From Lysinibacillus sp. FSL M8-0337 (lineage in GTDB: Bacteria; Bacillota; Bacilli; Bacillales_A; Planococcaceae), in assembly GCF_038593855.1 (NCBI RefSeq), contig NZ_CP151996.1, positions 1,612,001 through 1,676,000 on the forward strand: a stretch of DNA of 64,000 nt, given 5' to 3'. Under the pieces are notes generated by a model. The model had not been told where the DNA came from and did no database searches. It saw nothing but the letters and a program-made list of their open reading frames with translations. Position 1 is the first letter of the stretch; the number at the start of each line of letters is the position of its first letter. Shown here in pieces: positions 30,064-32,544 of the stretch. Made by a program: the position numbers and the translations under genes.

Positions 30064-30174
30064 TAGAGTATAGCTTTTTTTGGCAAAAATAAGTAATCAG
30101 CATGCGTGCATTAAAAAATTTTAGGTGGATAATCTATTAAAATAATGTTATCGTATGAAGTAACTAAATAATAT

Positions 30175-30294
30175 ATCCTTCAGGGTAGGGTGAAATTCCC
30201 AATCGGCGGTGATGAAGTAATTCAAAGTCCGTGAGCGCAAGCTGATTTGGTGCAAATCCAAAACCGACAGTTACAGTCTGGATGGGAGAAGGAT
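30175..30294 (+). ncRNA. FMN riboswitch (RFN element), first copy
   Basis: The conserved RFN blocks are all present in order: AGGGTAGGGTGAAATTCCC, AATCGGCGGTGATGAAG, AGTCCGTGAGCGCAAGCTGA, GGTGCAAATCCAAAACCGAC and AGTCTGGATGGGAGAAGG. P1 is closed by ATCCTTC/GAAGGAT. It binds FMN and turns off riboflavin synthesis. It is followed by its own terminator at 30362 and then by a second aptamer. Confidence 0.95.
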
Positions 30295-30361
30295 GAAAGT
30301 ATAAGCTTTTTAAATTCGTATGACTTTAAAAGGTCTATTTGGCTACGCTTATATGAAATAT

Positions 30362-30396
30362 AACTTCCCATCGCTTCTGTTGGGAAGTTTTTTATT
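30362..30396 (+). terminator. Terminator of first FMN riboswitch
   Basis: Perfect 9-base stem (AACTTCCCA/TGGGAAGTT) with a 10-base loop and a T run, 67 bases after the first aptamer. It is the expected expression platform. Confidence 0.85.
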
Positions 30397-30420
30397 TAGG
30401 GAAAAAATTGAATAGGTATC

Positions 30421-30542
30421 TGTTCTTCGGGGTAGGGTGAAATTCCCAATCGGCGGTGATGAAGCAATTCAAAGTCCGTGAGCGCAAGCTGATTTGGTGC
30501 AAATCCAAAACCGACAGTGATAGTCTGGATGGGAGAAGAACA
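30421..30542 (+). ncRNA. FMN riboswitch (RFN element), second copy
   Basis: A second complete RFN aptamer, nearly identical to the first in all core blocks; only a few positions differ (for example GAAGCAATTC instead of GAAGTAATTC, and GTGATAGT instead of GTTACAGT). Its P1 differs and has compensated (TGTTCTTC/GAAGAACA). Its own terminator lies at 30618. Both copies precede ribE. Confidence 0.95.
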
Positions 30543-30617
30543 ATAAGATGGTAGCCTGTGGAAAATTTTTGTATCCACTAGGTTTATTTCGTGACGTCTT
30601 ATGTATAAGTACTCCCA

Positions 30618-30646
30618 AACCCCTTTTATGCTAAAGGGGTTTTTTC
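30618..30646 (+). terminator. Terminator of second FMN riboswitch
   Basis: Nine-base stem (AACCCCTTT/AAAGGGGTT) followed by six Ts, 75 bases after the second aptamer and 86 bases before ribE. Confidence 0.85.
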
Positions 30647-30731: not shown

Positions 30732-31370
30732 ATGTTTACAGGTATTATTGAGGATATTGGCACAGTAAAAACCTTGCAAAGCGATAGGCAAAGTATGGAA
30801 ATAACAGTGATTTCGCCCAAAATAGTGGCGGATGTGAAGCTCGGGGATAGTATAGCCGTTAATGGGGTTTGTTTGACAGTAACTCATTACAATGACCAAG
30901 AGCTGACAATGGATGTAATGCCTGAAACAGTGAAAGCGACGAATTTACAGCAATTAACTGTTGGTCATGCAGTCAATTTAGAGCGTGCAATGCCAGCCAA
31001 TGGACGATTTGGTGGCCATTTTGTTTCAGGTCATGTAGATGGTGTAGGGAAAATTATACGCAAACGCCCAATGGCAAATGCGGTCTATATTGATATCGAA
31101 CTTTCAGAGGACTTAACTAGCTATTGTATTCCTAAAGGTTCAATCACAATTGATGGAACGAGTTTAACGCTCTTTCATGTTGAAAAAAACAGTGTCACAG
31201 TATCGCTTATTCCACACACATACAAAGAAACCGTACTAGGTGTTAAAAATGTTGGGGCACTGGTCAATATTGAAACCGATTTAGTAGGCAAATACATTAT
31301 TCACCAGTTAAAGGGTGGTCTGCAATCGTCAACCATTACAAAAGATTACTTAGCGAAGCATGGTTTTTAA
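30732..31370 (+). CDS. ribE: Riboflavin synthase
   Basis: Makes riboflavin from two molecules of 6,7-dimethyl-8-ribityllumazine. The 212-residue protein has the two tandem lumazine-binding domains: MFTGIIEDIG at the start with GVCLTV near residue 47 and GGHFVSGHVDGVG near residue 95, then the second-domain repeat with SITIDGTSLT. Length matches trimeric riboflavin synthases (B. subtilis RibE). ATG 30732 follows AGGTGG. It is the first gene behind the tandem riboswitches; ribD, which usually leads this operon in Bacillus, is missing. Confidence 0.95.
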   Translation: MFTGIIEDIGTVKTLQSDRQSMEITVISPKIVADVKLGDSIAVNGVCLTVTHYNDQELTMDVMPETVKATNLQQLTVGHAVNLERAMPANGRFGGHFVSGHVDGVGKIIRKRPMANAVYIDIELSEDLTSYCIPKGSITIDGTSLTLFHVEKNSVTVSLIPHTYKETVLGVKNVGALVNIETDLVGKYIIHQLKGGLQSSTITKDYLAKHGF

Positions 31371-31426
31371 CCTGCTATAGAAAGAAAAAAACATACATTG
31401 AAAGTCAAATCTATTAGGAGGTGGCA

Positions 31427-32059
31427 ATGTTGCTACATTCAATTGAAGAAGCAATTGCCGATTTAAAACAGGGCAATATGATTGTTGTTGTGGATGATGA
31501 AGACCGTGAAAATGAAGGAGATCTACTGGCCCTTGCAGAGTTTATGTCACCAGAAACGATTAATTTCATGGCAACATATGGAAGAGGTCTTATTTGTACA
31601 CCTATTTCACAGCAGCTCGCACAAAAATTAGCGTTACAGCCAATGGTCATAAATAACACCGATAATCACCAAACAGCGTTTACTGTCAGTATTGACTATA
31701 AAGAGACAACAACAGGCATTAGTGCTTTTGAACGTGCTTTGACGATTCAAAAAATGCTAGTGTCACATGCACAAGCATCGGATTTCCGTCGACCTGGACA
31801 TGTTTTTCCGCTAATTGCGAAAGAAAATGGGGTATTAGAGCGCCGAGGACATACGGAGGCTACTATCGATTTAGCAAAACTTTGCAACAGTGTACAAGCT
31901 GGCGTGATATGTGAAATTATGGGCGATAATGGAGAAATGCTGCGCTTTGATGAGTTAGTCAAATATGCACAAAAACATAAATTAAAAATGATTTCGATTG
32001 ACGCATTAGCAACATATCGTCGTCAACATATGCAAATAGAAAATTCACTTACTATGTAA
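31427..32059 (+). CDS. ribB: 3,4-dihydroxy-2-butanone 4-phosphate synthase, single domain
   Basis: Converts ribulose 5-phosphate to the four-carbon unit of riboflavin. Signatures: [14 protein letters not shown] near residue 23, [13 protein letters not shown], the RRPGHVFPL block, [12 protein letters not shown] and [11 protein letters not shown]. The protein is 210 residues, so it lacks the GTP cyclohydrolase II half that makes B. subtilis RibBA about 400 residues. ATG 31427 was chosen since the earlier GTG overlaps the ribosome site GGAGG. It ends 14 bases before ribH, leaving no trace of the second domain in between. Confidence 0.93.
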
Positions 32060-32073
32060 AAGAGGAGAATGAA

Positions 32074-32544
32074 ATGATGGGAAAAACATTTGAAGCACAA
32101 TTAATTGGCAATGATTTAAAAATAGCGGTGGTTGTTGGTCGTTTTAATGAATTTATAACAAGTAAATTATTAAGTGGTGCATTAGATGGGCTAAAGCGTC
32201 ATGGTGTAGACGATGATTTAATAGATGTTGCGTGGGTGCCAGGTGCATTTGAAGTACCGTTTATCGCAAAGCAACTAGCTGAAACGAAAAAATATGATGC
32301 CATTATAGGTTTGGGTACAGTTATTCGTGGCTCTACAACACATTATGATTATGTGTGTAACGAATCAGCTAAAGGCATTGCAAACGTATCGCTTTCGACA
32401 AATGTACCAGTTATTTTTGGGATTGTCACAACGGAAAATATTGAGCAAGCGATTGAACGTGCTGGAACAAAATCTGGCAATAAAGGTTATGACGCAGCGA
32501 TGTCCGCAATTGAAATGGCTAATTTACAAAAAATGATTGGCTAA
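32074..32544 (+). CDS. ribH: 6,7-dimethyl-8-ribityllumazine synthase
   Basis: A 156-residue enzyme catalysing the penultimate step of riboflavin synthesis, expected to form a 60-subunit capsid. Motifs: [26 protein letters not shown] near residue 20, [16 protein letters not shown], and the catalytic [17 protein letters not shown] with its His. Ribosome site AGAGGAG; the start may be ATG 32074 or 32077. It is the last gene of ribE-ribB-ribH. Confidence 0.95.

Follow-up and report, generated by a model that had tools for sequence, protein, structure and literature searches.

Two complete FMN riboswitches stand in tandem before the riboflavin synthesis genes ribE-ribB-ribH of Lysinibacillus sp. 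FSL M8-0337, within the 64-kb stretch of DNA analyzed here (the window). This doublet is real, well conserved, and of a kind that has already been described; the interesting part lies in the spread of such tandems across the family, in the higher copy numbers found there, and in the apparent concerted evolution of the copies. We consider it probable that the doublet acts as two independently folding FMN attenuators in series (a 'pseudo-cooperative' tandem) whose cores are kept alike by conversion. The features of the leader and operon are collected in Table 1.

The two FMN matches (RF00050) were the sole Rfam matches at the gathering threshold that cmscan returned for the window. The sequence-only reading had claimed two complete tandem FMN switches, each with a terminator, ahead of ribE. 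Infernal with the FMN model placed both copies far above the gathering cut-off of 66.2 bits (116.3 and 114.6 bits), so that neither is a sub-threshold match, and both terminators were located. The conserved core and the helices of RF00050 were present in both copies, with one non-standard pair marked per copy in the cmscan alignments, and judging from their sequences both copies probably bind FMN. The gap from copy 1 to copy 2 is 121 nt in the window, and the two aptamers differ at four core positions. Their P1 helices differ by compensated changes (TCCTTC/GAAGGA in copy 1 and TTCTTC/GAAGAA in copy 2), as had been noticed from the sequence alone. A third FMN switch in the same genome, which is labelled G000 in our genome set, is solitary and precedes an ECF transporter S component gene that we read as ribU.

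Table 1. Positions in the window of the features of the tandem FMN leader and of the operon that follows it.
Feature	Position	Strand	Evidence or detail
Conserved AATGTTATCGTA block, probably belonging to the leader promoter	30144..30155	+	Kept 5' of copy 1 in 27/28 doublets of the genus
FMN aptamer, copy 1	30172..30297	+	RF00050, 116.3 bits, E 2e-26, model 1-138 of 138
Putative antiterminator 1, 5' strand GATGGGAG, within aptamer 1	30281..30288	+	Predicted duplex with CTTCCCATC, -13.2 kcal/mol
Hairpin directly 5' of the copy 1 pause-like motif	30305..30334	+	-6.9 kcal/mol
CTATTT, one base off the NusG motif TTNTTT (copy 1)	30335..30340	+	YTATTT in 27/28 copy-1 platforms
Intrinsic terminator 1	30362..30393	+	Hairpin 30362-30389, -12.0 kcal/mol, then T run
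Putative antiterminator 1, 3' strand, and terminator 1, 5' arm, CTTCCCATC	30364..30372	+	CTTCCC in 27/28 genomes
FMN aptamer, copy 2	30419..30544	+	RF00050, 114.6 bits, E 5.6e-26, model 1-138 of 138
Putative antiterminator 2, 5' strand TGGGAG, within aptamer 2	30530..30535	+	Predicted duplex with CTCCCA, -11.3 kcal/mol
Hairpin directly 5' of the copy 2 pause motif	30554..30583	+	-9.4 kcal/mol
TTATTT, fits the NusG pause motif TTNTTT (copy 2)	30584..30589	+	TTNTTT in 27/27 scored copy-2 platforms, of 28
Putative antiterminator 2, 3' strand CTCCCA	30612..30617	+	CTCCC in 28/28 genomes
Intrinsic terminator 2	30617..30646	+	10-bp stem 30617-30642, then T run
ribE, riboflavin synthase	30732..31370	+	Two Lum_binding stretches, 1.5e-48 (Pfam)
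ribB, DHBP synthase without GTP cyclohydrolase II part	31421..32059	+	DHBP_synthase, 4.8e-84; no PF00925 match
ribH, lumazine synthase	32074..32544	+	DMRL_synthase, 6.5e-61 (Pfam)

Among 32 genomes of the genus, 28 carried a doublet, one a triplet (G012), and one a quintuplet (G026), and two had a single FMN switch. These last two are G005, whose genome is 86% complete, and G017, which lacked a GTP cyclohydrolase II match and may therefore not make riboflavin. All 28 doublets showed the same differences between the copies at columns 4, 126, and 128 of the alignment, which belong to P1 or adjoin it. An expression platform follows each aptamer (with terminators 1 and 2, respectively); the platforms of copy 1 and copy 2 are unlike in sequence, but each could be aligned and was conserved, copy by copy, across the 28 genomes.

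The cores of the two copies were closer to each other within a genome than across genomes (core distance 2.71 vs. 3.65; permutation p 1e-5). All 28 genomes were placed on a tree built from about 1.1 kb of ribE-ribB. Copy 1 underwent 43 core changes on this tree and copy 2 underwent 36, of which 13 occurred on the same branch and to the same new base in both copies. Random placement by branch length, which served as the null, gave a mean of 4.6 coincident changes, and none of 20,000 trials reached 13; a subset of 21 of the 28 genomes gave 10 coincident changes (P 0.003). Since the two cores of a genome tend to change jointly, they are likely kept alike by gene conversion inside the aptamer, which is the simplest explanation. 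Parallel selection on each copy would be another source of coincident changes, and a somewhat unlikely one in our judgment: some of the coincident sites (columns 52, 53, 72, and 88) are in loops according to the structure line of the cmscan alignment, where parallel change is easy, and the tree draws on only that short stretch of ribE-ribB, but coincidences by exact base and branch exceed a same-branch-only null over the 20,000 trials. If gene conversion is the cause, the coincident changes suggest how the copies of a tandem may be kept working, with the sensor part being converted and the output part evolving independently.

Most units contained a hairpin between aptamer and terminator, the 3' end of which runs into a T-rich motif. 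PMC12288461 gives TTNTTT as the motif at which NusG causes pausing in B. subtilis; it was tested in the ribD and fmnP FMN switches, where NusG-dependent pauses raise FMN-dependent termination; residues N81 and T82 of NusG are named there for motif recognition. Both residues were present in the NusG of the window's own genome (G000:C1:4423513-4424028). Of the 119 scored units, 107 contained TTNTTT and 94 contained TTATTT, compared with 42.0 and 17.5, respectively, when the bases were shuffled; the shuffles, in these tests as in those of the pause hairpin and of the antiterminator, preserve base composition only. Copy 2 of the window has a hairpin and a TTNTTT motif before its terminator. Copy 1 lacks the strict motif, which was found in 18 of the 28 genus copy-1 platforms. 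As far as the excerpt of PMC12288461 describes them, the B. subtilis ribD and fmnP switches resemble the present ones in combining FMN attenuation with a hairpin and a TTNTTT pause before the terminator decision; they are single switches, whereas here a similar element recurs in each tandem unit, one base off in copy 1. By analogy, polymerase may pause at both window copies.

Differences between the units could also mean that they differ in affinity or kinetics, so that the response would come in two steps spread across a broad range of FMN levels and would not be sharper. Such a response would fit platforms that differ in sequence and are conserved per copy, as it would the unequal pause motifs of the window (CTATTT in copy 1 vs. 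TTATTT in copy 2). However, cores that are kept alike within each genome argue for equal affinity, and we regard a two-step response as unlikely.

RNAalifold, applied to the 28 genomes, paired the aptamer GGATGGGAG with CTTCCC in copy 1 or with CTCCC in copy 2; four rows of the platform-1 alignment (G002, G004, G010, and G019) end before the 3' arm of the terminator. Of CTCCCA in the window, only the last base lies inside the terminator 2 stem, and since CTCCC is outside the stem, the terminator itself is no explanation for its conservation. The complementarity of the antiterminator strands speaks against such pairing: within the genus it did not exceed that of shuffled arms (copy 1, median z -0.55; copy 2, median z -0.82), and arrays of four and five units lent it no support (z -0.41 to 1.62); values below -1.64 were reached by 19 of 119 units. 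Antitermination may operate in both units.

The consensus terminator scan listed terminator 2, and terminator 1 was absent from it. A first terminator rule gave nothing or a weak hairpin for five printed units (G066 copy 1, G081 copies 1 and 2, G072 copy 3, and G087 copy 2), and a looser rule yielded a call for 119 of 120 units, the missing one being G020 copy 2. Equilibrium folding gave terminator 2 a median probability of 0.92 when free vs. 0.95 with the aptamer held bound. Terminator probabilities below 0.5 in the free state were obtained for 15 of 28 copy-1 units and for none of 27 copy-2 units, and clear switching was seen in 10 of 61 units of other arrays. By this test terminator 2 does not depend on its aptamer, which weighs against control by FMN at copy 2. 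Equilibrium folding is not decisive as a test of switching, and FMN control is compatible with its result, since PMC12288461 describes a kinetic mode of action for ribD of B. subtilis; FMN dependence of terminator 2 is thus putative. If only copy 1 switched, copy 2 would have decayed or would act constitutively, as an attenuator whose sole effect is to reduce expression. The prediction of terminator 2 in both states is what such an attenuator would show; yet the core of copy 2 is at least as conserved as that of copy 1 (mean between-genome distance 2.64 vs. 3.56), and the genus as a whole keeps the P1 bases of copy 2 together with its pause motif and CTCCC, so we hold a lone working copy 1 to be quite improbable.

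Both switches appear to belong to one leader. The sequence A[AG]TGTTATNGTA precedes copy 1 in 27 of the 28 doublets of the genus, with TGTTAT in 28 of 28, and occurred between the copies in none of the 28. The consensus scan made no call at the block upstream of copy 1, and in the window it returned no plus-strand promoter-like site between the copies. We infer from its conservation that the AATGTTATCGTA block is part of the leader promoter and that the promoter lies upstream of copy 1 only; copy 2 would then be reached only via read-through of copy 1. The gaps between the copies measured 115-243 nt in the genus doublets, and the longest closed ORF wholly within one, on either strand, was 52 aa. 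The sequence-only reading had pointed to close relatives as places where ribD or another gene might split the copies, and no such gene was found in any of the 28 doublets. The arrays of G026 and G012 are contiguous too, though they stand before ribD-ribE-ribBA-ribH. The longer gaps of G001, G020, G025, G030, and G031 (L056, L072, L077, L081, and L082) hold a common element containing CTCCGGAC, accompanied in L056 by a 22-nt inverted repeat in the same gap; the longer pattern of this element was absent from the window.

The copy-specific P1 bases (28 of 28 doublets) and the platforms common to the genus rule out a recent duplication, and to judge from them the pair is older than the genus radiation. 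A deletion scar of two formerly separate switches is ruled out within the genus, given that no doublet has an intervening gene. Although the window aptamers differ at so few core positions, a recent origin by duplication, or a scar without function, can for practical purposes be set aside as an account of the pair: 28 of 32 genus genomes carry it, with the copy-specific parts in common, and a gene intervenes in none. The earlier proposal of a recent duplication, or gene conversion, under selection thus survives in part; its recent date falls, while conversion is favored by the coincident changes (13 vs. 4.6) and conservation by the 28 of 32 genomes.

In the mechanism we propose, serial attenuation with conversion of the cores, one transcript of the ribE-ribB-ribH leader would pass two complete FMN riboswitches in turn. 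In each unit, polymerase leaving the aptamer would meet the hairpin with its T-rich pause-like motif and then the terminator. Without FMN, GGATGGGAG in the 3' part of the aptamer would pair at the terminator, with CTTCCC in copy 1 and CTCCC in copy 2, and allow read-through; with FMN, the aptamer would retain the GGATGGGAG strand and the terminator would form. The operon would be read only when both checkpoints are passed, so that, compared with a single switch, FMN should repress more deeply and with a steeper response, and less FMN should suffice for half-maximal repression. A simple series model gave deeper repression and a lower half-maximal level as units were added, and a multiplied repression by the two units of the window is predicted in this sense. 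The pair would have formed before the genus radiated, after which the platforms would have diverged and been conserved per copy while conversion homogenized the aptamer cores.

At the level of the family, which we take to be Planococcaceae, 200 genomes were sampled. Tandem FMN switches, defined as matches above the cut-off on the same contig and strand less than 700 nt apart (600 in the scripted count of the genus), were present in 102 of the 200 genomes and in 13 of 19 genera: 86 doublets, 13 triplets, two quadruplets (G048 and G092), and one quintuplet (G026). This tally was made partly by script and partly by eye from listings. The genus grouping also took one sub-threshold match of the second G012 segment, and G012 was counted once, as a triplet; G101 was counted as a triplet as well, although an interrupted further copy adjoins a stretch of N there. 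The tandem count leaves out G056, in which two FMN matches below the cut-off (39.8 and 35.1 bits; G056:C1:259938-260230) lie next to each other and are perhaps a decayed doublet. The six tandem-free genera, represented by one genome each, had a single FMN switch before ribD/ribE and another before a ribU-like gene, the genes there being called by motif and by eye.

Other genera of the family contributed 74 tandem leaders, 20 of which were analyzed in detail, and in these 20, as in G026, G012, and G000, the next gene was ribD or ribE by motif. The largest array, that of G026, comprises five FMN switches at G026:C1:1208220-1209144 (L033 5221-6145), spaced 201-202 nt start to start, and precedes ribD-ribE-ribBA-ribH. 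Its platforms 2, 3, and 4 are identical, with aptamers one to three positions apart, and the last platform is different; this near-identity of the inner units is as expected if they were amplified lately. Neighboring aptamers were 82-84 nt apart in the three arrays of four or five units. The genome of G048, one of the two with four units, is in one contig, and that of G026 is in three. In G012 (G012:C1:557000-572000, L034), the ribD-ribE-ribBA-ribH segment with its FMN switches occurs twice in a stretch that includes 2604 N, and this duplication may be an assembly artefact.

Outside the family, tandem FMN switches were found in none of 100 genomes of a phylum sample and in one of 84 genomes of a class sample (G322); these controls were read by eye, and G224 and G268 are in both samples. 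A pattern scan of named genomes returned 42 stretches, each a pattern match only. They include Lysinibacillus, Kurthia, Planococcus, Psychrobacillus, Solibacillus, and Ureibacillus, and these names are our ground for taking the family to be Planococcaceae. Kurthia zopfii, K. sibirica, and Bacillus ndiopicus had two matches apiece, and L. macroides had four; seven of the 42 were Lachnospiraceae, Clostridia, Bacteroidaceae, Paenibacillus, or Brevibacillus records. Tentatively, and with slightly less than even confidence, we suggest that the FMN riboswitch of the riboflavin operon in this family is a copy-number-variable module (aptamer, pause hairpin with a TTNTTT-like motif, and terminator) amplified to two to five copies, in which conversion equalizes the sensors, the platforms remain copy-specific, and repression becomes as deep and as steep as the unit number dictates. 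Sharper gene control is the assumed benefit of tandem switches of one class, and a family with one to five FMN switches before its riboflavin genes offers a natural dilution series for this idea.

The opinion that tandem FMN switches are rarely described did not withstand comparison with the literature. The excerpted sections of PMC9481103 (2022) count 31 FMN doublets and four FMN triplets among pseudo-cooperative systems, a class that matches the window in having two or three switches of the same class per leader with several expression platforms, and for which a steeper response is predicted. The section consulted names no operon for FMN, no four- or five-unit FMN array was noticed in the excerpts, and the paper uses neither the term quintuplet nor gene conversion. 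PMC12452182 (2025) places double and triple FMN switches before ribE-ribB-ribH in Bacillota (87% doublets and 13% triplets), the same operon and arrangement as in the window; the words Lysinibacillus, Bacillales, duplication, gene conversion, and quadruple are all absent from its main text. With doublets and triplets published, the window doublet is of an already known kind. Searches of open-licence papers showed neither FMN arrays of four or five nor concerted evolution of riboswitch copies, and arrays of that size may stand in supplements. The triple c-di-GMP-I riboswitch of Bacillus thuringiensis, described as more digital in the excerpts of PMC9481103, is likewise a series of identical switches, though for a ligand class unlike the FMN class here.

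Other pathway genes of G000 lie elsewhere in the genome. About 245 kb from the ribE-ribB-ribH operon, ribA and ribD adjoin FAD-binding oxygenase-like and 5'-nucleotidase/HAD-like genes (G000:C1:1392868-1396398; L053 4869-8399). No Rfam match was obtained in the 11-kb stretch around this cluster, so the GTP branch of the riboflavin pathway seems to be outside FMN-switch control in G000. A shorter RibA match like that of G000 was present in 29 of the 32 genus genomes.
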